Assembly (NCBI GenBank): GCA_025716815.1 | Contig: JAIXMN010000004.1 | Span: 1,736,001-1,800,000 of the forward strand | Length of the DNA stretch: 64,000 nt | From: Dichotomocladium elegans | Lineage: Eukaryota > Mucoromycota > Mucoromycetes > Mucorales > Lichtheimiaceae | Reading direction: 5' to 3' | Shown: piece after piece, positions 2,764 to 29,011 of the stretch | How positions within the stretch are numbered: position 1 is the stretch's first letter | Layout of the letters: every line of letters begins with the position of its first letter | The notes under the pieces: model-generated | What the model was told of the DNA's origin: nothing | The model's database searches: none | The model's input: only the letters and a program-made list of their open reading frames with translations | Translations under genes and position numbers: made by a program

Positions 2764-5700
2764 ATGGTCAAGAAGGTCGTCGATTCCCGAGTTCATACAC
2801 TCATTAAAAACTGTGTGCAAACTAAGCACCGCTCTTTTTTTGTTATTGTCGGCGACAAGGGCAAGGATCAGGTAAACCTGCCTTCGTTTAGGGTTATGGA
2901 AGAAGTGTTCCTGACAAAAAAATAAATGTGCTTAGGTGGTCAATCTCCATTGGCTTTTGTCCCAAGCCCAGGTGACTTCCCGGCCTTCGGTTCTTTGGTG
3001 CTATAAAAAAGAGCTTGGTTTTACAAGGTAGATATGACTATACAACGTTATGGACGATCGCTTGCTCACACCTTATCAATCTGTAGTCATCGTAAGAAGC
3101 GTGAGGCAAAGATCAAAAATGAGATCAAGAAGGGCATTCGCGAAGCAGATACCGAAGATCCATTCGAGCTGTTTATCTCGGTGACAGATATTCGCTATAC
3201 ATATTACAAGGAGACTCAGAAAATCCTCGGTAACACTTACGGCATGTGTATCCTCCAAGATTTTGAAGCAATCACCCCGAACACCCTTGCACGTACCATT
3301 GAGACTGTTGAAGGTGGAGGTATGATCGTTCTTTTGCTCAAAACCATGAACTCGCTCAAGCAGCTCTATACGATGACCATGGTACGAAATGGAAGGAGCG
3401 ACCGACTTTTGCCAGTGTGCTAACGAGAAATGTAGGATGTTCATTCACGATATCGTACTGAAGCACACAGCGACATTGTCGCTCGTTTCAATGAACGTTT
3501 CATTTTATCTTTGGGATCGAGCGAAAACTGTTTGGTGGTGGACGACGAACTGAACGTCCTCCCTATTAGTATGGGAAAGCACGTTAAGCCCATGTCTATC
3601 AAGTCCTCCGAGGAATCAAAATCTGCCGAGGAGATGGAGCTGGATGAATTGAAGGAATCGCTTGCTGATACAGAACCAGTGAATTCACTGGTTAAAAACA
3701 CAAAAACAGTTGATCAGGCTAAGGCCGTCCTGACCTTTATTGAGGCCATCTCAGAAAAGACGTTGCGAAGTACGGTCACCTTAACAGCTGGTCGTGGTCG
3801 CGGTAAATCAGCTGCACTTGGTATTGCTATGGCTGCTGCTGTTGCGTATGGATATTCCAACATTTTCGTTACGTCTCCAAGCCCCGAGAACTTGAAGACG
3901 CTTTTCCAATTTGTGTTCAAGACATTCGACGCTCTCGGCTACGAAGAACACTTAGATTACGATATTGTGCAATCTACAAATCCGGAATTCAACAAGGCTA
4001 TCGTCCGTGTAAACATTTTCAGACAGCATCGTCAGACTATTCAGGTATTTTTGTGGTTATTAGATTAAGATAACTGGCTAACGAATCTATAGTATATTCA
4101 ACCCCAAGATGCTCATGTGTTGGGTCAAGCTGAACTGGTGGTTATTGACGAGGCTGCTGCAATTCCTCTTCCGATTGTTCGCAAGCTTTTGGGCCCCTAT
4201 CTTGTCTTTATGGCATCGACGATCAATGGTTATGAAGGCACTGGTAGATCCTTGTCTCTGAAGCTCATTCAACAATTGCGTGAGCAATCTAGAGGGTTTA
4301 TCGGCAAATCGGGTGGTGTTGCAAAGGATTCTTCTGGCGAAAACATTCTGGTGGACCGTTCGATGAACGCCAAGAAACAGACAGATGACATGTCAGGCCT
4401 TGGCGGACGTACACTCAAGGAAATTAAGCTCGAAGAGCCTATCCGTTATGCTCCTAATGATCCCGTTGAAAAATGGTTGAACAAACTTCTTTGCCTGGAT
4501 GCCACTGTCGTTTCCAAGAATATCCAAGGATGCCCCCATCCATCCGAATGCGAACTTTATTATGTTAACCGCGACACACTCTTCTCCTACCATCCCGTCA
4601 GCGAAACCTTTTTGCAGCGCATGATGGCGCTCTATGTCGCAAGCCACTATAAGAACTCCCCCAATGATCTTCAGTTGATGAGCGATGCACCAGCCCACCA
4701 CCTGTTTGTTCTTCTCCCCCCTATTTCGGAGAACAGCAATAGTCTCCCCGATCCTCTCGTCGTTGTTCAACTATGTCTCGAAGGCGAGATATCCCGTCAA
4801 ACCGTGGTCAACTCTTTGTCGCGTGGCCAACGCCCTGCGGGTGACATGATCCCCTGGTTGCTTTCTCAGCAGTTCCAGGATGATGACTTTGCAAGTCTAT
4901 CGGGTGCACGCGTTGTCCGTATCGCCACTCACCCTGACTACGCCCATATGGGTTATGGTAGCCGTGCTCTTGATCTACTCAAGTCTTTCTATCAGGGTGA
5001 AATGTCAGATCTTAGCGAAGCTGGTGTTGACGATGACGAGACAATCGCCCGAGTTGATGATGATGAGCTAGAAAATGCTGATCTTAAGACAGATCAGGTT
5101 AAGATTCGCGATCCTCGTAAGATGCCTCCTCTTTTGAGCAAGCTCAGTGATAAGCGTGCTCCTCGTCTCGACTATCTTGGTGTTTCTTACGGTCTGACCC
5201 CTGCCCTTCACAAGTTTTGGAAGCGCGCTGGTTTTGTGCCACTTTATATCCGACAAACACCCAATGATCTGACGGGCGAGCATACATGTGTTATGCTTAA
5301 CACATTAGACAATGGAGTCTCAACCGCACCGTGGCTTGAAGCATTTGCCCGCGATTTCTCAAAGCGTTTCTTGAATCTACTTTCCTATCAATTCCGAGTA
5401 TTCCCTGTCGTCAACGCCCTCAGTGTGCTCGAGGCGGCACTGCAAGGTCATCAACAATCTGAGGTGATTAGCAAGGATGTCTTGAATATATTCTTCTCGC
5501 CTTACGACTTGAAGCGCCTCGATTCCTATGCGAACAACATGCTTGATTACCATGTTATTATCGATATGATTCCCACCGTGGCCCTTCTTTATTTCCGTGG
5601 CGATATGGGGTCTGAAGTCAAGTTGTCAGGAGTTCAGAGCGCACTTTTATTGGGTATTGGCTTGCAACGCAAGACGGTCGAGGACCTCGAACAGGAGCTT

Positions 5701-6231
5701 GGTTTGGCTGGTAACCAGGTGCTTGCTATGTTTGTCAAAGTTGTCCGCAAGGTCAGCCAATTCTTTACCAATGTTCAGAGTAAGGCCATCGAAGAAGAAT
5801 CTCCGGATTTGAAGAAGAAAAAGAAGCAACAGGAGGAAGACGAGCCGGTGATTGACGAGGAAGAGAATTCCAATAAGCGTGATATCATGAACGAAGAGGC
5901 ATGGACACCGCTAAAAGACACATTGGACAGTGAGCTTAAGGAGGCCGGAAATGAAGTCCTGGACGAAATGAAGTCAAGGCAGCGCGAGATGATCGACTCG
6001 CTTGATCTCACTAAGTATGCCATTGGTGGCGAGGAAAAAGACTGGGCTGCTGCTGAAGCGCAGGTGAGCGCGCTGGCAACCGGCAAAGCGAAGTCATCGG
6101 TGGTGAGCGTGAAGAACCCCCAGTCATCCAAGAAGCGAAAGTTTACTACCACTGCGAGCGGTATTGCTGCCAAGGAGCAAAAAGCACTCCAAAGAAAGGT
6201 AAAAATGACGAAGAAGACGAAGCAGTCATAA
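2764..6231 (+). CDS. KRE33: RNA cytidine acetyltransferase (KRE33/NAT10 family)
   Basis: Five exons: 2764-2871, 2936-3027, 3087-3381, 3436-4044, 4093-6231. Together they give 3243 nt, a 1080-aa protein, close to NAT10/Kre33. The family makes N4-acetylcytidine in 18S rRNA and some tRNAs, uses ATP and acetyl-CoA, and is needed for 40S assembly in the nucleolus. Visible domains: the N-terminal TmcA-like region (residues about 1-250), an RNA helicase core with Walker A GRGRGKS near residue 285 and a Walker B-like VIDEAAAIPLP just after the last intron, the GNAT acetyltransferase region around 500-760 (RIATHPDYAHMGYGSRAL), then the tRNA-binding-like domain and a lysine-rich tail. All introns are 48-64 nt with GT-AG ends. 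ATG 2764 gives the conserved N-terminus MVKKVVDSRVHTLI. The 3' end faces the mitochondrial gene at 6373. Confidence 0.95.
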
Positions 6232-9538: not shown

Positions 9539-10115
9539 TATAAATAACGGGGTTTGATCAACTGATTTTCTTCACCAAATCCATCCTCTGCTCTCTTGTG
9601 TCTTGAACGGCATACAGCCCCAGCGTACCGACTTGCTCCATTCTGCAATCTTCTAATATTTCGGGTCCTCTGTATATAACGATATCAGCCTAACTCAAGC
9701 GCCTCTAAAGGAGAGGGTATGGGCTTTGGGTGAGACCGTGGTTGGCTGCATCCACGCAAACCTCCCACCATGACCTCGACTGCTTCCTCCGATGCTTCCC
9801 TCCGATGGTTCTGCCACTGGTGTTGTCGTTGTTCCGTCGTCATCCCCCCTGCTCCTCCCTCCAACTCTTCCGCTGTCGCATCCGCTGTCGACGCTCAACT
9901 GCTCCGGATCCTTCTTCTCTCCCTGTTCCGCGATTTTTACCGCAATGACACGCCTAGCTATCTTCGGGGTAAGTTGAAGGGTAAGAAGGGGGCTGATATT
10001 TTCTGTTGACTAAAGGGTATGTCTCGGCTTTCTTATTTATACGACAGTTTATTTTACTTTGTATGCGTCATAATTTTCCTCCTTTGCGAAATTTATTTTT
10101 GAAAATAAAGTATTT
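9539..10115 (+). other. Solo copy N of the Fanzor-associated 3' module (short transcription unit)
   Basis: A TATAAATA box at 9539-9546 is followed by about 420 nt and then by a 3' module related to that behind the Fanzor gene. It holds a segment ending in CTTCGGGG, an intron at 9969-10015 (GTAAGT donor, TTGACTAAAG acceptor/branch region, 47 nt), and a tail with a TATACGACA motif, GAAATTTATTTTTG and AATAAAG near 10106. A 79-codon open frame from ATG 9770 covers the first part; its end (LLLSLFRDFYRND) resembles the end of the small ORF in copy R (LVLSLRPGYRRDY). No nuclease is present. This is the most diverged of the copies. Confidence 0.6.
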
Positions 10116-15273: not shown

Positions 15274-15591
15274 TCATATTAAACAATGCCTAGTCTTGTT
15301 GTTCTCATTCTTAAAAATCTCTTGATTTGCTTTATCCAGCTCATCCCCACTATAGTCAAAACAGACATCTTTTGGCACTGGATCATCTGACAGAGTCAGA
15401 TACTGTTCCACAGGGTTGAAAAATTGATCTGCGTTTATACACCATTTTTCAAAATCAAAGTCGCAGCCTGCCAGTTTTGAAGTCGCAGGATCGCAAAAAT
15501 ACAAATCGCATTTTTGTCCGGAAATCTTTACGCGTGATGACAAAGCAAAAGTCGCATACATACACGGAAAGATGTCGCAAATCCATCTCAT
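15274..15591 (-). other. 105-codon ORF fragment shared with two other sites
   Basis: The minus-strand frame contains ATFALSSRVKISGQKCDLYF, then CDPATSKLAGCDFDFEKWC and an acidic end. Its first half recurs at 7122-7319 (minus, ATFALVSRVKFSGQ) and 33937-33990 (plus strand coding side). It lies head-to-head with relic C. It could be a remnant of another mobile-element gene. I do not recognise the family. Confidence 0.4.
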
Positions 15592-15599
15592 CCTTATGA

Positions 15600-16040
15600 C
15601 TCTTTCTCTTTATAAACTTTTACATTTTGAAATGAGCAATCTATTATTTTACAACGATGGCCAAGGTCATGTCGCTGATGAGGAAATGTACTCACTTCAA
15701 TCCGTTTGTTCTTACACTGAATATCTGTGTAGCATATCGTGCAAAGATAACTCTGAGTTTACTCTCACACACATTCCCAAGCGAAAGGATACATACATTC
15801 GGATGAAAGAAGCGGGGATCAAGGGCAGTTACACAGCATACACTGATCAAGGCAAGGTCAGATGTTTCAAACTGGTGTTTGAGGAGGTATTGAGTGCATC
15901 AGCTGCAGCAAAACAGCTAGGACTCCATGTTCGTTCAGCACAGCGATGGGCATTACAGTAAGAAAAGGATCCTGACAGCATTTTAAGAAACGTAGAAGCA
16001 GGGGGCCGATCGTGTATTCTCAATGAAGAGCATTTATTGT
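15600..16040 (+). pseudogene. Tc1/mariner transposase relic C (N-terminal part)
   Basis: The N-terminal third of the transposase is well preserved: DEEMYSLQSVCSYTEYL, a spacer, then VFEEVLSASAAAKQLGLHV and RSAQRWALQ before a stop at 15961. Shifted-frame similarity continues to about 16040 (KDPDSILRN, then an NEEH piece). The catalytic domain is missing. It is the best-preserved N-terminus of the family in this window. Confidence 0.8.
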
Positions 16041-16488
16041 TCTAGAATGCAATTTTTGCTAAAAATAGCCGTACTCAAAAGAATCCTATATCGAGAAGAC
16101 TAAGTTTATTCTTGGAAAGAACAAAGAACTATGGGAGTGTGCTTTCTTTGTCAATGAGCCATTTAGCCTGGGGATTGTAACTCCGAAGCTGGTTATCAAA
16201 TGGAATAATGAAGTAATAGCTTTCAGGAGACTCCTGTGTTCTCATTGTAATATTCAGAGAAATTATTCATTATGTACCTACACTTTCTGAACGTATGGAT
16301 AAGGATGACAGCAGTGTCGTGTTTTGTTGTGTTGTAAGAGACTGAGAGAGTACGAAAAGAAGTACAATCTTCCTACACTACACAAGTGCCGGATATGTAT
16401 CGGATTATTCTTGAGATGGTCTCTTGGAATTACTTGTTGGAATTGTTTGGGATTTCATTGTTGATTTCAGACCGCCCTCACGTCGATA

Positions 16489-16660
16489 CAGTGGCCGCCC
16501 CTTATAGTTATACCCTCGGTTCCAGGAAATCGCATCACTATAATGAATTATCACTATAATGAATTGGAATAAGCCCTACCTGGCAATTTTGTCCTTCATA
16601 AAGTGTATCGCTATAACGAATTATCATTATAATGAATATCACTATAACGAGCGGCCACTG
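16489..16660. mobile_element. pogo-type MITE, copy 1
   Basis: A 172-bp element with terminal inverted repeats CAGTGGCCGCCCCTTATAG / CTATAACGAGCGGCCACTG, flanked by TA on both sides (16487-16488 and 16661-16662). The interior is rich in CACTATAATGAATTA-type palindromic repeats. CAGT ends with TA duplication are typical of pogo/Tigger-type Tc1-mariner relatives. A second copy lies at 33643-33795. It ends 66 bp before the TATA box of the Fanzor gene. Confidence 0.88.
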
Positions 16661-16726
16661 TAAAACCTCATTAAAGAACCCAGTGGGAAAAAGAAAAACA
16701 CTGTGGAGATGGATCATTGCTGACAC

Positions 16727-16735
16727 TATAAATAG
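16727..16735 (+). promoter_or_regulatory. TATA box of the Fanzor gene
   Basis: TATAAATAG lies about 180 bp before the Fanzor start codon. The other two main module copies also have TATAAATA upstream (9539; 33253 on the minus strand). A GTAATA...CCCTAG segment at about 16836-16891 could be a 5' UTR intron. Confidence 0.6.
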
Positions 16736-16905
16736 TGATGCTCAAGCAAGCTGTCCCTTTCCATTATCCACATACAAAACTAGAGCCCATTCAGCCTACA
16801 GAAAATAACACAGCACCACATTTACGGTTGAAAGGTAATACGGCCGCTTTCATACTCGGCTCTGCGATACTAAGAAATAATATACCCTAGGTCTTCACCC
16901 ACCAA

Positions 16906-19104
16906 ATGGCCCAACCCCACCGCCCCGTCATTCCCGAAGGCATGCGCACTGGCCACAGCATTGACCGCACTGGCCGTATAATTGGGGTGAAATCGTCCAT
17001 ACGGGGCATCGGCTGGCGACAGCAGTACCGTGAACGTCTGTATCAGTTGGTTGACCTTGTCCACAACACCACAACACAGGCGTACGCGTTCGCCAAATAT
17101 ATTTTCATCAACGAGGCAGCGCGCGATCCAACTTTTAACATCCAGGAAAACATCACGGAGAAGTTCTTTTCAGAAGTTTGGCTCTCCATGGTTAACAAAG
17201 CCGAACGCCGCACCCAAGGTGAAACTGCCCGCATCCGAGAACTAATTAACCGCCACAAGGATGAGTACCTTCGGATATCCGGATACGACAGGCCTGCGTT
17301 CCCTTATTCCCAGCAATGTTCTTCTTACGAAGGCACCAAGATTTATACTGCTTACGTGAATAATGTCCACATGCGGTTCGGGCAACACCTTCGGCGTGTC
17401 ATCAATGTCATCCTGAATCTTCGTCAGCGAAAAGCCGACCGCAAGCGAGAGTTAATCGCACAGGGCCTAAGCCCCGATCAAATACGCCAGGACCTTTATG
17501 AAACCATCACCCGGCATGCCACAGGATTCAAGCTAGCAATTGCCCGTCGAGGTATTTTGAGGGAAGACATTAACGCCGAACCTGGATTTCTTCGGGAAGC
17601 ATACGATATCCTACAATCTGTCTTAAACGCTTACCCCCGAAACCACCAATTCCAACACCAGAGTATCTATTACGACGCCAAGGCCAATCCTGTTAAGCAT
17701 TTCAACGCCTTCTTCCAGCTTGCACGCGTTTGTCAACAGAACGGAATACGCGGATTCAACTGTTTTCCACTTCGTCGCTCGTGGTCACCATGCTACATGG
17801 AGATCGATACGAAAATCCTTTGCTACCATATCCTGGGCTGCAAAATGGAATCCCACACAAGCAATATGGAGTACTGGAGACGTGTTGTAAACCTGAAATC
17901 AAGAGCTTTCAAACCCCAAGAATCCGAGCTGCTCCAATTCCGTGGGACTATTCACACTGACGGCGTCGGTGTTACTGTGTTCAAGAAGACAAATGGCCTT
18001 CAATCGGGTTTCGGACAGAGATTTTGCATCCAGAGCGAAGATATCGAATACGTCACCCCACAGATACTCCGGAACGAAGACTATAGAGGACAATGGGTCA
18101 CCATTGATCCTGGCAGAAGGGACCTGTTGTATTGCGTTCATGAGAACTCGTCACCCGACAACCACCAGACCTTCCGATATACAAAGCAGCTTCAAGATCA
18201 TACACAGAAGTCCAAACGGTACCGCAGACTCCGAGAACGACTCAAGTTAGAGCGACCCGAGGTCGCGTTGGCTGAGCAGAATCTATCGCAATTTCAAAGT
18301 CATACGCTTTCCGTGCCCAACTACGACGGATACCTCGCTGCCAAGAACAGGGTCTCTGTAGTTCTCAAGTCTTTCTACGCGACAACCACTACGAACCACC
18401 CGAACCCACAATTTCTTTTTCGAAAACTTCGCCTGTCAGCGTTTTACAAGAAGCAGCAAGCAGATGAAAAGCTTCTCGATTCTTTGAATGCGAAGTTTGG
18501 CAGTAGATCCGTTTTCGTGATGGGAAATTGGTCTGCGCCGCATACAAGATATCACGAGCCTATCCGTGGTGTCGGCTTCCGGCGGCTGTTGAAGAAGAAC
18601 AATTGCAATATTTATTTGGTCGACGAGTACAAGACAAGCAAGTGCTGCCCTGTATGTGACAATGAAAGCCTTGCTACCTTTAAAATGGTTCCTAATCCAC
18701 GCCCATATCGACGACCCGACAATCCGCTCACGATCTGCCATGGCCTGCTACGGTATGAAGGACGGGCATGTTGTGTTATACTTCCAAAAGATTATAATAC
18801 AGTATTTTGATGTTTCAATAGATGCACAAATCAAAACTGTACAGCAGGCATGGCAGAGGGTGTTTGTCAACCAAGGTTATGGAACCGGGATCTGGCGGCG
18901 GCTCTCAACATGCATCATATCCTCCGGGGTCTTCGGGAAGATGGTATCATCCCAGCAAGGTTCCAGAGAAGAAATGCTGCACAAGCATCCGCAGCTGGTG
19001 GAAGACCACACTCACCTGAACCAGAGCAGCGCAGCGTGAGACCACGACGGGCAAGGCCAGGAAGGCCACGAGGTGCACGCTCTGGCGGGTCGAGACGACC
19101 GTAA
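16906..19104 (+). CDS. Fanzor RNA-guided DNA endonuclease (eukaryotic TnpB/OMEGA family)
   Basis: Two exons, 16906-18752 and 18822-19104, give 2130 nt and a 709-aa protein. Without splicing the frame stops at TGA 18808; removing the 69-nt GTATGA...AATAG intron restores LLRCTNQNC and reads through. The RuvC nuclease can be followed: RuvC-I VTIDPGRRDLL (Asp about 401), a GNWS block near 540, VDEYKTSK with Glu about 574 (candidate for the alternative catalytic Glu reported for Fanzors), a split zinc finger (CCPVC at 580-584, then CTNQNC at 617-622 and Cys 631), and RuvC-III LWNRDLAAALN with Asp about 639. The N-terminal 390 residues carry the helical part (YQLVDLVHNTTTQAYAFAKY). The C-terminus is Arg-rich and could serve nuclear import. 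Fanzors cut DNA guided by an RNA made from the 3' flank. All expected catalytic and zinc residues are present, so it may be active. Confidence 0.93.
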
Positions 19105-19119
19105 CCCCAACCAAGAATT

Positions 19120-19202
19120 TTCCGCGTCAGTTATCGCTGACGCACCCAGGATAACCACAGCCCTTCGGGGCAAGCCCCCTTCCTTTGGAAGGACGGTGTG
19201 TT
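19120..19202 (+). ncRNA. Candidate Fanzor guide-RNA scaffold (fRNA/omegaRNA-like hairpins)
   Basis: Starting 19 nt after the Fanzor stop, three hairpins follow one another: GCGTCAG-TTATCG-CTGACGC (19124-19143), GCCC-TTCG-GGGC (19160-19171) and CCTTCC-TTT-GGAAGG (19178-19192). The first recurs in the solo module on the minus strand near 32930 with the same loop TTATCG but a different stem (GTCCCGG/CCGGGAC), that is, compensatory changes. The UUCG hairpin also recurs with altered stem pairs. Fanzor and TnpB guide RNAs are known to come from this 3' position. The role here is inferred from position and structure; no transcript is shown. Confidence 0.5.
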
Positions 19203-19390
19203 GTAAGTCAACGGGATTGGAGAAGGCGTAGTGTTTTCTGCTGACTAACAGGGTTTCATCCATGGATGCGAAATCTTTTTACCTATTGATACGACAAATT
19301 TATATAATTCTATGCGACATTTTTCTTGTATTTTGCACGACATTATTTTATCTTGTTTACGAAATTTATTTTTGAAAATAAAGTACAGTC
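19203..19390 (+). repeat. Conserved 3' tail of the Fanzor unit with spliced intron and poly(A) signal
   Basis: An intron-like segment at 19203-19251 has a GTAAGT donor and GCTGACTAACAG (branch plus acceptor). It is followed by a tail with ATCCATGGATGCGAAATC, CTATTGATACGACAAATT and GAAATTTATTTTTG, and AATAAAG near 19377. The tail is nearly identical to the reverse copy at 32722-32881 and related to 9969-10115. An ATTGATACGA fragment occurs at 20408-20475. Confidence 0.75.
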
Positions 19391-20720
19391 CACTCCCAGC
19401 AAACTTGCCCGTACGTCAGGACTTTTTGAGCGAGGCGAATAGATACAATCGTTCGCTTCGCACGAGGAAAAAGATGGATGGAATCATCCTTCCCGAGGAG
19501 TGTCACGCATTTCATCCTGACTCGCGTTTAGGGTTTCGGGAGAGGTGATCAAGTGAGCATCCCCATGCGCGAATAGCCTGCCGATTCTCATTCTTTGCCA
19601 GTTGGGTTTTCTGCAGCAAGCCCCCTGAGGGTATTGTTTGCAAGAGGTAGGGATGGCCCAGGAAAGAAATGTTCAGATTATAGCAAAAGGTGTACGGTTT
19701 TAATAGGCAGCGAACTGGGGCACTGTCTCATCCGGTGGTACCCCTGGCTTCTAAATATTGAAACCGACCGCCTTTCGTACGCATCCCCCCCCAAAAAAAA
19801 ATCTCCTGCCGGTAAACACGCGTGGGCAGATCTGCGGAAAAATCCACATTTTTCCCGCCGAAAATGTATTGACAGCGACGGATGATACACTATTTTGGCC
19901 GTGATCAAGGTTATATTAAAAAATAAAAGATATATAATCCAAAAACCTGTATTGTGAAGAAAGTTTGTGCAAATTGGCAAGGCAAGCTTTCAGACCTCGG
20001 TCACCTCTGCGCAAGAAGACAAAAATAGGTGTTGCACAAAAAACTTCGCACATTCAACTCTATATGGGCATTCAGCATTCTCAAATAAGCAGCCAGTTTA
20101 TCCATGAAGAAGGGCAGGGCTTTGCTGTATACTATATGGGCATTAATGAAGAAGTAATCTATTTGTTCCTATTCAGAACTCAGTGTATGTAGTAGGCTTT
20201 GCTACGGTAAGCGCATACTCCTTACTGAACATATTTCTGAAGGAAAAGGCACAGACCTCCCAACAAAGCGAAGCAGGGCTAAGTCATAGTTTCAGTGCAA
20301 ATGCTGGCCAACGTGCTGTCAGACTTCCAAGCCGACTTTCGCAAGAAAATTTGCATAAGGTTGAGGATATCTCCAAGTGCGTTAGAACTACTTCCATTGA
20401 TCCACGAGCGGATCCAATGAATTTCGTTTTACTTATTGATACGATGACTACATACAATTCTATGTGACTCAAGTTCGATAATATGGTATTCTCAATGCAT
20501 GTATGACCAAGAGAAGCACTGTTGTTTCATCACAGGGATTAAGCACGTACAAAACTAATACCTAGGACATTGAGGATTGATCATTTCCTGTACCAACACC
20601 GCCTCGCAGCCTCCAACAATCTCCCCCCAAGCGCGTTCGGACTCGCCGGGATCCCGACGAAAAGAAAAAAATTATCTTCCCTTCCTCTTTGCATGTACGA
20701 TTGAAGTCAACGGGACCTAC
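19391..20720. other. Intergenic with a Fanzor-tail fragment at 20408-20475
   Basis: No gene was recognised. Bases 20408-20475 (GATCCAATGAATTTCG, TTATTGATACGA, CAATTCTATGTGACTC) are a diverged fragment of the Fanzor 3' tail (compare 19258-19320). Upstream of 20721 is presumably the promoter of the reductase gene. Confidence 0.5.
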
Positions 20721-21947: not shown

Positions 21948-24316
21948 ATGAAATTCGGTCAGACATTACGAACCTCATTATACCCCGAGTGGACTTGTTA
22001 TTATTTAGGTAACAAAAAAATCCCTTTTTGGCTCGGCTCGTTTTCGCTTTGGCAGTTTTTTTCTAATCACACGAAAACTTGACGCTCATACAGCGTATGA
22101 CGACTTGAAAGCATTATTAAAAAAAGGCTCGGTGGGCGGTCAGGAGTGGACAGAAGAGAAAGAGTCGCGCTTTGTTGAACAACTCGAGAAGGAGCTTGAC
22201 AAGGTGTACAGCTTTCAGCGTGTCAAACTTGACGAGATAAACAAGCGGATCGAGGAGGAAGCAGGGGAGGTCGATGAGTTATGCAGAAAAGAAGCGCCGG
22301 AAGATGATGAGTTTACTGCGTCTGAGCTTGAGCTTGAGCATATCATTGCGGATGTTCATGACCTTGCAAAGTTCACGCGTCTTAACTACACCGGCTTCTT
22401 GAAGATAATCAAAAAACACGATGTAAGAAAGTGTGGAGTTGGGGAGGGTGAGGGGTCTGACAGTCTTATTTAATTATGCCTGGGGGCACCTGTTTATAGA
22501 AAGTGACAAAGTGGAAGCTCAAGCCCATGTTCAATGTGCGACTCAATGCGAAGCCGTTCTACAAGGAAAACTACGATGCATTGATTGTGCGCATTTCGTC
22601 GCTTTACGATCGCGTCCGTACACGTGGCAAAGAGCGTGCGGGTGACTCATCTGCGGGCGGCAAGCAATCTGCCTTTGTTCGAAGCACAACAAAATATTGG
22701 TAAGCATCGTCTGTGGCAAACCGCTTATGTGCACACACGGAATTAAAACCTAAATCCATAATCCAGGGTCCATCCTGACAATATTACCGAATTGAAACTC
22801 GTCATTCTTAAGCATTTGCCTGTCCTTGTATTTAACCCGAACAAGGAGTTTGAGATCCAGGACTCTGCCATCACCAGCATATATTACGACAACGACGATT
22901 TCGACTTGTATATGGGCCGTCTGGAGAAGACCGAGGGTGCCGAAGCTATCCGAATGCGCTGGTACGGTGGCATGGACTCCAATACGATTTTTGTGGAGCG
23001 CAAAACCCATCGCGAAGACTGGACGGGCGAGAAGTCAGTCAAGGCGCGATTTCCCATCAAGGAGAAGTACCTAAACGCATTCATGCGGGGCGAATATACT
23101 GTGGATGCGTTGTTTGCGAAGCAGCGAGAGCAGGGCAAGCTGTCAAAAAAGGAGCTTGAGGAGATGGAGCAGCTAGCGCAAGAAGTACAGTATCGAGTTC
23201 TGACGAAGCGCCTGCATCCGATGATGCGCAGTTTCTATAACCGGACAGCCTTCCAGCTGCCGGGTGATGCGCGCGTGCGCATCTCGCTTGACACCGAGCT
23301 GTCTTTGATCCGGGAGGACAACATGGGCCGCGTCCGCTCGGGTGATAACTGGCGCCGAACTGACATTGGAATCGACTATCCCTTTAAGCAGCTTCCCGAG
23401 TCAGACATCTGCCGATTCCCCTACGCTATTCTCGAAGTCAAACTCCAAACTCACGTTGGCCAAGAGCCTCCCCAGTGGGTTGTCGATCTGGTCAATTCCC
23501 ATCTTGTCGAATCAGTGCCCAAGTTTTCGAAGTTTATCCACGGTTGCGCCACCTTGCTGGAGGATAAGATCAACGTCTTACCCTTTTGGCTGCCCCAGAT
23601 GGACACCGATATCCGCAAACCCCCTACGCACTCCTTTGGTCTCTTGCGCCCTGCAGATACTACAAACAGCAGCTCGGTGTCTAATAATAGCACTAACGAC
23701 GAGGACCATGTTCAGATCCGCATGATCGCCGAAGCTACCGAGCATTCTCCCCTACTGCTACGCGGCCACGAAGACGAGACCCATAATGATCATGACAATG
23801 CATCATCCTTCCTGAAGCAGCTTTCCCCTGCCGGTCTCCGGAACCTGTTCAAAAAAAGCAAAACAACCTTCGGATGGGCACAGAGCTCTTCAACAAGCAA
23901 CACACGACGTCCTGTCATCTCCGCTAAACCTCCACCCGTCAAAACGTTCTTCGCTAACGAACGCACCTTCATGTCCTGGCTTCAATTCACACTTATGCTC
24001 GGCGGTCTAGGGATTGGTCTCTTGAATTTCTCGGACACAGTCGGTCGCTTGTCAGCATGTGTATTCATTCTGATCTCCATTGGTGTTATGATCTACGCAC
24101 TCTTCAACTACCATGAGCGCGCTAACCGGGTAATTAGAAACGAGACGGGGGAGTACTCGGATAAGTACGGTCCTGCTGCGCTTACAGGGTGTATGGTGCT
24201 AGCAGTATCTATCAATTTTTACTGTAAGTCGGGGCATGGGGATGAGGGGCCGCGTTATGTGGTGTGATGCACTAACCAGAGTTGTTACTCTAGTACGCCT
24301 CACCTTGGGCGGTTGA
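21948..24316 (+). CDS. VTC4: Vacuolar transporter chaperone 4, polyphosphate polymerase (VTC4)
   Basis: Five exons: 21948-22008, 22094-22422, 22500-22699, 22767-24223, 24294-24316; total 2070 nt, 689 aa. VTC4 is the catalytic subunit of the VTC complex, making polyphosphate from ATP and moving it into the vacuole. The first exon supplies the SPX start [20 protein letters not shown] and joins to [11 protein letters not shown]. The SPX domain (about 1-145) ends with the Lys-rich [18 protein letters not shown]. The catalytic tunnel domain (about 190-480) shows [41 protein letters not shown] and AILEVKLQ (basic and acidic active-site residues). Three C-terminal membrane helices of the DUF202 type follow ([46 protein letters not shown]). 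The tiny last exon (23 nt) gives the ending RLTLGG. Confidence 0.95.
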
Positions 24317-24680: not shown

Positions 24681-27259
24681 ATGTTTTCCCGCGGAAGACA
24701 TCCGAGCGCACCCTCCACAGGGCAAGGAGCATATACCCGACTGCAGCAGCAAGACGACTTGGACGATGACCTTGATGATCTAATCGCTCATACTTGCATT
24801 GCTCGCCATCCGAACTCGATTATTGTGACCAATAACTACCATAGTACTGTTGCCCCTATACTTGCGAAATCACCTTCTCTGCCCACGGCGCAAAACAATG
24901 AATCAGGCGGCGGTGTGAGCATTACGATCGCTGAGGATGATGAATCCAGCAGCAGCAGTCAACACCTCCACACGCAGCCGCCCTCGCAGCCGCCTCCACC
25001 ACCGTCTTTCTCTCAAAGGGCATCGTTTTCTGCGAGGCGAGCGGCCGAAATACCCACGGCAACGCGGCACTTTATCCAAAGCAAGCTGCCGTTCCGCAGG
25101 AAAACAGCAAGTGAGGCATCTTTTGCCTCCTTGCCGCAGGTAGTCATAGCAGATATCCAGCAGGGCGATATGCCTGCCCAGAGCGATCCCTTGCTCAAGG
25201 AGCTCCCCAAGCGCGGATGGACCATCGTCCGCCGCCGCCGCTTCCGGGGCCGGCGTCGTATGCTTGGCAATAAAAAGAACGAGCGAGGCATTCTGGCCCC
25301 TTTGCCATTTGACAAATCGCTCGTGCAAACCGACACTATTTCCGCATCTGTGTTTGTAAAGTGGGACCCGTCAAGGTCAACATCATCCAACATCGATATG
25401 ATTTCCATACAAAGCTATCATCACACGGCCACTACGTCTGTGAAACCTGCTCCTAAGGTATCAAGAGAGAGAGGGGGGAGATAGAACAATGCCACGTCGG
25501 ATACAAGAAACAGATGATAATATCTGATAATAATGATAGGATATTCCGGTGAGTACACCTGAATTCAACTTGATCGTGCAATCTGTCCGGACGGCGATCG
25601 AAGATGCAGGCGTGCAGCCAACACGCATCAGTCAGGGCTCGAGCGGATCCTATTTCTGTCGCAACAGCAGCGGTAAGACGGTTGGCGTATTTAAGCCGAA
25701 GAATGAAGAGCCCTATGGCCGTCTAAACCCCAAATGGACAAAGTGGATCCACAGACATCTCTTCCCATGCTGCTTTGGGCGGAGTTGCCTGATCCCCAAT
25801 CTCGGCTACATATCCGAGGCGGCCGCCTCGCTCATCGACCGTCGACTTGGCACATGCATTGTGCCCCACACAGGGATCGTCCATTTAGCGTCGCCCTCAT
25901 TCCACTATGACTATCTCGATCGGAGATCAGCTGCGATTGTTGGCCTTCCGCCGAAGATTGGTAGCTTTCAGTGCTTTCTCGATGGCTTCAAGGACGCCAA
26001 CCTCTTTCTCCGCGATAACCCTTATCCCGCAGAAAACTATACTGCCTCCTCTCTGGTTGGTCGGAGCACTTCAGCCGTTTGGGCAGGGTGCATGGGTCAG
26101 CAGCAGACCACTGACTGGGACGAAGGAAACGAGAGTATCGCAGAAATGAATGACGAAAGTGATCACAGCGCCCAGCAATCGCCTGCAGCCACCAAACGGT
26201 TTCGGTGGACAAGACGGCTCCAGGACAACTTCAAACTAGAGTTTGAGCAGCTTGTCATATTAGACTATTTGATTCGCAACACAGGTGAGAACGAGCAAAG
26301 CGGGGATGGGGGATGGGGATGTAAATCCAGAGACTTACATATGAGAGAGAACTCAAAAAGACCGGGGATTGGACAACTGGATGATCAAGTACTGCGACCG
26401 GGCATCTAACAGCGGCAGCAGCAGCCCAACTAACAACAGTAGCAACGCCACATTAGCTGATTGCGCACGAGACTACATCCAGATTGCCGCTATTGACAAC
26501 GGCCTTGCCTTTCCCTTTAAACATCCTGACGAATGGCGGTCGTATCCCTACGGCTGGCTTGCGCTGCCAGATACCCTCATTGCCCGGCCCTTCTCAGAGC
26601 AGACGCGGCATCAATTCCTCGGCGTCCTTTCAGATCCGGTCTGGTGGCGAGAAACTGTATATCAGATGCGCGAGCTGTTCCAAAACGATGCAGACTTTGA
26701 TGAGCAAATGTTCGAACGGCAGATGGCAGTCCTCAAGGGCCAGGGCTTCAATATTGTCCGAGTCTTATCGAACCCTAACGCCTCGCCGCTCGATCTGGTG
26801 GCGACAGAGCGGGTCTTAGTCAATCAGGAGGAGATCCTGATCGAGTATGATGAGGACCTGATCCGCCAGCGCAGCCCGAGCTACAGCGCAAAGTCATCAC
26901 AACCACCATCCAACCGACGTTTGCGCACCAAACGATCGACATCTTTTGACATGACAATGCATAGGCCTCTAAGCGCGGATAATGGAAATCCTGAAGAAGA
27001 ACATGGAGTGAACACAGAACGCCCTTGGAAGGATCGAATGTGGGGCCGCGTATCAATCGACCTCGGACGTCGGCGACGAAAGCGGTTGATGAAGAATTTG
27101 AGGTTAGGAATGGGGACCGCCGGAAGCGACGGCGAGGACAATGATTCGGACTCGTCAAGCGACGATGAAGACGAAGGAAAATCGCGGAAACGCGTTACGA
27201 TCATTATGGAGACCATTGAAGTTGTCAAAAGCCGAACACCTTATTTCACGTGCTGCTAG
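24681..27259 (+). CDS. LSB6: Type II phosphatidylinositol 4-kinase (LSB6/PI4K2 family)
   Basis: Three exons, 24681-25457, 25540-26284 and 26361-27259; 2421 nt, 806 aa. The enzyme makes PI4P on endosomal, vacuolar and plasma membranes. The first 259 residues are low-complexity and basic near the end (RRRRFRGRRR). The kinase follows: the glycine loop QGSSGSYFC, the ATP-binding Lys in VGVFKPKNEEPYG, a cysteine pair in LFPCCFGRSC where family members are palmitoylated, the catalytic DYLIRNTDRGLDNWMIKYCD formed exactly across intron 2, and the metal-binding AAIDNGLAFPFKHPDEWRSY. The C-terminus has a Ser/Asp-rich acidic run and ends in FTCC, a possible lipid-modified end. It is longer than yeast Lsb6 because of the N-terminal extension. 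Confidence 0.93.
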
Positions 27260-27437: not shown

Positions 27438-29011
27438 CTATCGGAGATGGGTCGGCTGACCAGGAATCCATTTACGCAGAACTTCGGGTATCCTCACAGA
27501 ACCATCAGGCTGTTGGTGTGTCTCGAGGATAGCGATAATGACACGTGGGACCGCAATGGCAGTGCCATTCAACGTGTGGCAGAACTGTACCCACTTTTCC
27601 TTGATGTGCCAGGGGACTCGAACATCCTTTGGCCCGACTTTGTCCTTGAACTCGGATGACAGGTACCGAATATTAAGGCGTCGGGTCTGGTAATCAGTGC
27701 AATTGGAGGTGGATGAAATCTCACCCCAGTTTCCTCGACCTGGCATCCACGCCTCCATATCATATTTTCGATATGCACTGGCACCCAGTTCCTCGGTTGG
27801 CATATCCAGAATTCTATACACAAAAGTGAGGAAGGGAAATATATTAGGCCAAGCTCAATGATGTTCCGACCGTCACTATTATACCTGACGCAAAGCCCAA
27901 GTTCTGTGAAGAGTTCCTCCTGGAGTCCCCTCAGTTCCTCCAGGATTCCATCGCTCTGCTGCGGTGTTGATACAGCAAAAAGCTCAACCTTGGAGAACTG
28001 ATGAACGCGATAAAGCCCACGCTCCTCTGCCGAACCATGTCCTGCCTCAGCCCGGAAGGCCCTTCCAAAACCAACGACTCGCTGGGGCAGATCTTCTTCC
28101 TTGAGCATCTTGTCGGCGAACATGCCCGCCAATGGGATTTCTGCTGTGCCCGTCAGGCATAGCTTCGGAGCGGTGGTGCTGACGGTGCTGGCGGTGCTGA
28201 CATCGTAAATCTGAGAGGCTTCGCTCTTTCGAGGCTGAAAACCACAGCCGTACGCGACTGAGGTGCGGACAACATCAGGCGTGATGACAGGCAAAAATCC
28301 ACGGGAAGTAGCCCTGTCCATGGCATATTGGATCAAGGCCATCTCCAACCACGCGCCGCCGCTCTTGAGATAGTAGAATTTGCTGCCGCTTACCTTCGCC
28401 GCCTGTCCAAAGTCCACCAAACCTAATCGCTCTGCTATCGTCAAATGATCCTCCAATGGAGGCTCGCTTTGTTGCAGTGGAGTGCCGAACACTTTGATTA
28501 CTCGCGCATTCTCTTCCGGGCCGATCGGTACATCTGGATGCGTGTCGTTCGGCACCATCAGGCCGTGGTAGCACATATCCTCCTCTACAGCCGCCAGCTC
28601 CTCCCCGAGAGCCTTCAGCTTTTCTTTGACTGCCTTGCCTTGAGCAATATGTTTTTCACGCTCCTCTCGGCTCTTTGCTCCTCGAATCAATCCGTTTGCA
28701 GCGTCGCGCTCGGCTGACAAATGCGCCTGCTCCTGAAGTATCTGCTCCTTACGCAAGTAAAGCTTCTTGATCTGATGAACATGATCTCCATCGTAATTTC
28801 GAACCCGTATATTGCGCTCAATCGCGTCGCTATTGTCCACAAAGTGTTTGTAATTGAGCTGCGGCCGGATACGCTGATGTTGTGCTGTTGCTTCTACTTC
28901 AACGTCAGCTTTTCTTATAGACGAGATCCCGAAGCATCGCGCAGAGAGCGCTCGAGAAGCAGCAATGGAGCGCCGGCAAAGTGGTCGGCTTGCCAGGCAA
29001 CGCTGTAGCAT
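27438..29011 (-). CDS. DIA4: Seryl-tRNA synthetase, mitochondrial
   Basis: Two exons on the minus strand, 29011-27885 and 27813-27438; 1503 nt, 500 aa. The protein charges mitochondrial tRNA-Ser. An Arg/Ser/Ala-rich presequence (MLQRCLASRPLCRRSIAASR) precedes the N-terminal coiled-coil arm (about 60-150) and the class II core. Motif 2 is visible as RVVGFGRAFRAEAGHG with RGLYRVHQFSKVELF. The TGTAEIPL stretch binds serine/ATP, and motif 3-like EISSTSNCTDYQTRRL with NGTAIAVPRVIIAILE lies near the end. The 71-nt intron splits CVR|ILDMP. It starts 158 bp from the start codon of the divergently transcribed Grx5 gene. Confidence 0.94.

Follow-up and report, generated by a model that had tools for sequence, protein, structure and literature searches.

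The window (the whole 64,000-nucleotide stretch of Dichotomocladium elegans DNA that was analysed) contains on its forward strand an apparently intact Fanzor1 gene, 16906-19104, within a mobile element derived from the Tc1/mariner group (15440-19383, forward strand). The element is ~3.9 kb long and was delimited as the segment common to near-identical copies with different flanks; just 3' of the gene it holds a structured region that is a candidate omega RNA. Host genes recognised in the window by Pfam are a NAT10-like acetyltransferase (4117-6231), a VTC-domain protein (22792-24267), a PI3/PI4-kinase-like protein (25549-26409) and a seryl-tRNA synthetase (27569-29011); no tRNA genes were found in the window. 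The element, its ends, its copies, its transposase relatives and the guide-RNA region are additions to an earlier note on this DNA, the claims of which about the gene are taken up below.

The Fanzor1 gene and its intron

In a six-frame view the nuclease appears, as the earlier note had said, to end at TGA 18808-18810, the end codon of a 634-aa ORF (16906-18810). The 69-nt segment at 18753-18821 (GTATGA...CAATAG) contains an in-frame TGA, and joining 18752 to 18822 gives a protein of 709 aa with a single stop at 19102-19104. On comparison of copies and homologues this segment is a phase-2 spliceosomal intron on the forward strand; "unrecognised", as it had been called, holds for it only insofar as a six-frame view does not reveal it. 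Exon 1 (16906-18752, forward strand) runs from the N-terminus to HGLLR and includes D401, E574 and the first half of the zinc finger; exon 2 (18822-19104, forward strand) supplies the second half, the NRD with D639, a basic tail and the stop. Removal of the intron rebuilds CHGLLR joined to CTNQNC together with NRD, and the spliced frame reads as had been claimed, with D401, E574, D639 and CTNQNC all present.

The proposed identity of the protein as a Fanzor, with its restored zinc finger and RuvC-III, is supported by alignment of the spliced protein to PpFz1 (Parasitella parasitica Fanzor1, PDB 9cf0-9cf3), its best solved relative, and to SpuFz1 of Spizellomyces punctatus (8gkh). The score against PpFz1 (9cf0) rises from 405.6 bits with the exon-1 protein to 438.6 with the spliced protein (+33) and that against SpuFz1 from 153 to 181.6 (+29), the E-values of the spliced protein being 4.4e-130 and 2.5e-52, respectively. 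Both alignments cross the splice junction without a gap (PpFz1, CHGLLRCKNMSC...RLWNRDQAA; SpuFz1, HGLLGCTNPNC...RYWNRDM), which bears out the rebuilding of the CTNQNC zinc finger. D401, E574 and D639 map one to one onto D383, E541 and D606 of SpuFz1 (residues counted by hand in the alignment), given in PMC10432273 as its catalytic residues, and in the spliced form the Asp of NRD is thus in frame at 639. As defined in PMC10711439, Fanzor1 has DPG at RuvC-I and, some six residues ahead of the first CxxC, a rearranged Glu; the window's protein has IDPGRRD and VDEYKTSKCCPVC at these places, and the RuvC-III Asp after the zinc finger (LWNRD, D639) is present only in the spliced form. PpFz1 is alike in its RuvC motifs, zinc finger and RuvC-III but has ~90 extra residues at query 504-506 that are missing from the window's protein and are probably the FRI (cyclophilin-binding) domain.

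A profile search had been suggested earlier as a check. Pfam at E 0.05 has no family for the spliced protein and for exon 1 gives only a weak TNB match below the cut-off, so that Pfam alone would miss Fanzor1 here; PF26935 is listed for many database relatives. AlphaFold was run with 28 sequences on a proxy, P0002, which is 46% identical and is the best-scoring relative with both zinc-finger halves and the NRD. In the resulting model (pLDDT 80.2, pTM 0.77) the best seven Foldseek matches are all Fanzor chains (TM 0.57-0.75), with TM 0.68-0.75 against 9cf0, 9cf1, 9ceu and 8gkh; that the model is of a relative and not of the window's own protein counts against the overall explanation given below.

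For the intron comparison 40 loci were fetched from the same genome, and both flanking pieces were matched in 38 of them (in L019 and L031 the exon-2 piece is missing). In nearly all of the 38, one and the same codon marks the start of the insert. Its length is 69 nt for the young family and 56-69 nt for seven of the nine paralogues with ~47-57% identity; several older copies have 64-65 nt. At ten loci (L018, L020-L023, L028, L029, L032-L034) its length is 56, 64, 65 or 68 nt; as these are not multiples of three, exon 2 is frame-shifted on the DNA, yet it is 49-99% identical. Irregular cases are a 390-nt insert in L025 (~320 nt extra), a 27-nt insert without a clean acceptor in L027, inserts in shifted register in L030 and L036, an apparent GC for GT at the donor of L018, and a donor of AT, not GT, in L007.

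At least 79 matches to the exon-1 protein occur in the 39.4 Mb genome (122 contigs), a lower bound with 70 of 853 candidates scored. All 16 near-identical copies (L001-L016) have an open 709-aa spliced frame, with one stop in 710 codons, the D/E/D residues kept and exon 2 running 93 aa to the stop; L007 is open too, despite its lost donor. These copies carry 84 unique changes, 38 of which are nonsynonymous versus 58.6 expected (p 4e-6, with changes taken as independent), ~0.36 of neutral as calculated here, and by this measure they are under purifying selection.

Database homologues point the same way as the copies. An HGLL-type motif was found in 64 of 113 (49 are without it): 35 of the 64 read through by a simple pattern, 13 fall outside the pattern and 16 end no more than 8 residues on. 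Several of the 13 also continue, and P0069 and P0080 were matched in the wrong place. Ten of the 16 that end do so exactly at the intron-split Arg codon (P0043 among these is labelled partial); since read-through from CG into GTAA gives Arg and then a stop, the ten fit gene models running into the intron. The intron is likely to occupy the same place in Syncephalis, Rhizopus, Pilaira, Gilbertella and others, and some nuclease-dead-looking database Fanzors are probably truncated gene models.

A spliceosomal intron is thus indicated by the GT-AG ends, the same position in homologues and the lack of the insert from homologous proteins, and the 69-nt intron of the earlier note is upheld by homology, by the length-shifting variants and by the Arg-ending homologues. 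The alternative, a pseudogene with a protein that truly ends at 634 aa and an insert of degenerate, stop-containing sequence, could draw on the in-frame TGA, on the length of 69 nt (a multiple of three in the window copy) and on the mutated donor of L007, the last of which also weighs against the overall explanation. It was rejected as extremely improbable: other loci have inserts of different length at this site and yet preserve exon 2 in a shifted frame, exon 2 is open in 16/16 near-identical copies, and database relatives read on without the insert.

A role of the intron as a switch, through regulated retention, is improbable but less so. In the P element a retained intron makes a repressor; here a kept intron would give a 634-aa Fanzor without RuvC-III, i.e. 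a non-cutting RNA-guided binder that may repress its own family. Apparent conservation of the intron position across fungal Fanzor1 relatives, a stop in the retained-intron frame at 24 of the 25 loci measured, and a gene in the window that opens without need of any other intron all favour such a switch, but an ordinary intron at that place would look identical, and retention would cost half of the zinc finger as well. The preferred reading is that of an intron removed to give the 709-aa protein, which may be an RNA-guided nuclease and is predicted to be active because the three catalytic residues are kept, 16/16 copies are open when spliced and purifying selection acts on them; to this extent the earlier suggestion of an active nuclease stands. 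Introns in Fanzor genes are probably already known in general, Jiang et al. having reportedly described them in 2023. By a word-start count, the word "intron" is missing from the main text of PMC10432273, PMC11423790, PMC3627910 and PMC10711439.

The mobile element and its transposase relatives

The left end of the element (15440-15464, forward strand) is an imperfect terminal inverted repeat, CACCATTTTTCAAAATCAAAGTCGC, in which the repeat is 14 nt at 86% and longer by eye; the right end is CGAAATTTATTTTTGAAAATAAAG (19360-19383, forward strand). Both are bounded by TA, a target-site duplication presumed from comparison of the copies, at 15438-15439 on the left, with another TA before it (15436-15437), and at 19384-19385 on the right, beyond which lies the predicted guide. 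TA follows 37/37 right ends found by a right-end motif search and stands at the left in 23/28; two right ends of other families (L054, L061) are without TA. The context is TATA on the left (L-7 T 24/28, L-6 A 24/28, L-5 T 23/28, L-4 A 23/28) and on the right (position 3 T 34/37, position 4 A 28/37), suggesting insertion into TATATA-like sites. The right end contains AATAAA (19377-19382), which is poly(A)-signal-like, and cleavage 10-25 nt on would set a guide-like length. At the left junctions of L002, L014, L016 and L037 the usual CAC is missing and 5-6 right-flank bases are repeated (TATAC, TATAG, TATAGC), hinting at repaired or longer-duplication insertion. Directly beyond the window copy, at 19384-19460, is TACAGTCCACTCCCAGC..., which may be the end of another element; the guide of this copy may thus derive from a repeat.

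A 129-aa ORF (15572-15961, forward strand) with a weak HTH_23 match is an N-terminal remnant of a Tc1/IS630-type transposase without the DDE domain, and between it and the Fanzor ORF is a MITE-like insert with 26-nt inverted ends, TACAGTGGCCGC (16487-16662). The 129-aa ORF has at least 180 genome matches (150 of 1404 candidates scored), including a 475-aa DDE_3/IS630 protein at L044 (G000:C44:467800-470600). The latter is an intact Tc1/IS630-type ORF (Sleeping Beauty, E 1e-4); the left ~600 bp of the window's element are 76-88% identical to L044, the right end of which was not found within the 2.8 kb examined. The Tc1/mariner assignment accordingly has TA duplications, presumed from the copies, and inverted ends, though these are weak, but of an encoded DDE transposase only the 129-aa stub; the full transposase is in the related L044, and the window's element is a non-autonomous derivative.

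Similar arrangements are known. The SPu-1 element of SpuFz1 is likewise a multi-copy, Fanzor-only element with a putative TA duplication and ghost RNA loci, but is described (PMC10432273; PMC3627910) as having one ORF, a length of ~2.1 kb and a 75-nt scaffold that spans the right inverted repeat. The Fanzor1 elements of Tc/mariner type described in PMC3627910 are also Fanzor-only with mariner ends and TA duplications; the present element differs from them in its transposase stub, its intron and an RNA region shared with transposase-derived elements.

A structured RNA region 3' of the gene

The candidate omega RNA starts ~260 nt from the right end of the element with SL1, an 8-bp hairpin recognised by covariation (19124-19143, forward strand) that begins 19 nt past the stop codon. 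Beyond SL1 and on the same strand are GGATAA and the SL2 region (19149-19202) of the candidate scaffold, and two conserved motifs, GTAAGT (19203-19208), which is 5' splice-site-like, and GACTAAC (19243-19249), which is branch-point-like; these may also be the 5' and 3' sides of a further stem, SL3. In eight chosen sequences of three families 98.4% of SL1 cells pair and slid controls never exceed 57%; the covariation score was reached by 0/500 shuffles, and the two doubly changed pairs by 170/500. Across six families (A-F, named in this analysis; the window's is family A), represented by 18 chosen sequences, the six inner pairs of SL1 form in 17-18/18 and the two outer pairs only in 11-12/18, the inner pair types being GC/CG, TA/GC/CG/AT, CG/TA and AT/GC with several double changes. 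The base after GGATA pairs with the base before GTAAGT in 18/18 (AT 6, CG 9, TG 3). SL1 of published Fanzor1 RNAs is given as 7 bp in PMC11423790. Against the overall explanation, the 3' region as a whole has a thermodynamic z-score of only -0.18; Rfam at gathering scores matched nothing in the window.

The same RNA region is found in L067 and L068, whose transposase sequence is broken or partial and in which Fanzor gave no match, in the internally deleted copies L045 and L046, and in L069, where the opposite strand has a Fanzor remnant of 45% identity. The more distant Fanzor paralogues L023 and L027 gave no downstream match in a motif scan for this region, which also weighs against the overall explanation. 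L025 (G000:C1:564500-569500) has a paralogous Fanzor with a family C RNA region directly 3' of its right end, and L047 and L052, possibly with others, are a family B variant in which the middle of the conserved block is deleted and GTAAGT and TGACTAA are kept. In the window itself there is a second right-end/omega-RNA-like region at 9945-10111 (GGTAAGTTGAAG...GTTGACTAAA...GAAAATAAAG followed by TA), probably a "ghost" locus; the 245 bases upstream are not Fanzor-like.

Its presence in the degenerate transposase elements L067 and L068 and in the 9945-10111 remnant, and its apparent absence at L023 and L027, might mean that the region belongs to the transposon, as a terminator or transposase aid, and is not a Fanzor guide RNA. 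This is unlikely: in families A and B the region lies directly 3' of the Fanzor stop, SL1 is about the size of that in Fanzor1 structures, and Fanzor-free "ghost" omega RNA loci are described for Spizellomyces in PMC10432273. Even less tenable, and very improbable, is a fixed internal guide, in which the sequence that adjoins SL2 and is conserved between families would be the guide instead of the flank. A pattern search with AGTCAACGGGATTGG that allowed 2 mismatches found 129 matches in the genome versus 37 for the reversed control, at least 36 of them exact among the 100 listed; those placed by coordinates lie in elements, no outside target was recognised among them, and the fixed guide was rejected.

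With the region taken as a candidate omega RNA, the form of that RNA has to be weighed. At about even odds it is one long contiguous RNA of ~260 nt, with SL1, SL2, SL3 (AGTYAA with TTGACT), a right-end hairpin and then the guide, GTAAGT and GACTAAC being strands of a stem. Five of six SL3 pairs form in 17-18/18 representatives, the unspliced RNA of family E pairs GGATA with the flank at 0.84, and Fanzor1 scaffolds described in PMC10711439 include inverted repeats and the target-site duplication. Such a length would, however, exceed the 75-150 nt of the three Fanzor1 RNAs characterised in PMC11423790, including the 75 nt of PpFz1; among near-identical copies anything between 90 and 135 nt follows GACTAAC; and the right-end hairpin is by eye lost in L025 of family C. 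The distance of the candidate from the right end, unlike the 75-nt scaffold of SpuFz1, is likewise a point against the overall explanation.

Attractive but less probable is that the spliceosome builds the guide RNA. A hypothetical second intron, GTAAGT...AAAG (19203-19383, forward strand), would be removed to fuse the SL1-SL2 scaffold to the flanking DNA; the TA duplication would close the last stem and the bases beyond would be the guide. GTAAGT is intact in 49/53 sequences (one duplicate dropped), for which GT[AC]A was already part of the search pattern, and in five of six fetched loci outside that pattern (L047-L049, L052 and L060, not L022). GACTAA or a close variant is followed by 90-135 nt (31 in L026) and then the terminal AG. 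In 36 of 41 distinct tails there is no internal AG past two bases after GACTAA, for which per-copy shuffles give P ~0.02-0.09; a column-shuffle control, which omitted 5/53 rows for lack of an identified right end (some of them with internal AG), gives 6 AG observed versus 7.1 expected (P 0.23). AG exclusion therefore adds nothing past the conserved columns and was rejected as proof of a 3' splice site.

With the segment removed, the probability that the stem continues into the flank TA is 0.99 and 0.74 for two family B copies, 0.96 for family C, 0.90 for E and 0.95 for F; it is at most 0.16 for two A copies and 0.01 for D. Among 75 join positions the GTAAGT join ranks first or second in 12/16 representatives, including L059 with probability 0 and W9945 with 0.06; L058 is third with probability 0, L025 fourth, and family A 6 and 12. 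In families B, C and F the joined form has the better folding energy, in A, D and E an unjoined form of equal length, and GUA pairing in the unspliced RNA reaches 0.63 in family C. Beyond the control P of 0.23, the points against a spliced guide are that SL3 pairing also explains GTAAGT and GACTAAC, that the unjoined form is favoured in A, D and E, that the window's own family A is without a junction effect, that the window shows no enrichment of CTAAC-type introns (7 versus 12.7 in shuffles), and that AAG is a weak acceptor at a branch-to-acceptor distance long for a fungus. Among the matches listed in the Fanzor intron and splicing literature, judged by title and abstract start, no treatment of a spliced omega RNA was found. 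The bacterial IStron is alike in having transposon ends tied to splicing, but is a group I self-splicing intron (PMC4227781), whereas any splicing here would be spliceosomal.

The probable working of the element

The best explanation, with a probability of roughly 0.85, is that a high-copy element with Tc1/mariner-type ends and a transposase stub carries an intact fungal Fanzor1 gene, interrupted by one spliceosomal intron, and most likely works like other Fanzor1 systems. It is favoured by the left end shared with L044, the locus with the intact transposase ORF, and by the 3' RNA region shared with degenerate transposase elements. On this explanation the transposase of related elements would act in trans to move a copy into TA sites; the mRNA, spliced in vivo, would encode the 709-aa RuvC nuclease; and the structured RNA just 3' of the stop would serve as omega RNA, its guide coming from the flank beyond the right end. 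Cleavage of the empty sister or homologous site by this complex, beside a TATA-like motif, would then be repaired by copying the element back in, which would let the family persist. TATA is predicted as the motif of the window's Fanzor because the CATA of SpuFz1 (PMC10432273) fits the CA before its repeat plus TA.

With 16 of 64 motif-bearing relatives stopping at the intron, there may be a bias in surveys of active Fanzors and in the use of such enzymes as editors. If the guide RNA were indeed spliced, it would be a new way of making one, in which the transposon keeps long terminal sequences for the transposase and the guide RNA stays intact. The D. elegans elements appear as one mariner-like lineage in which some members have transposase sequence and others Fanzor, with the RNA region accompanying both, and this genome is thus a setting in which to ask what Fanzor does for the transposon.
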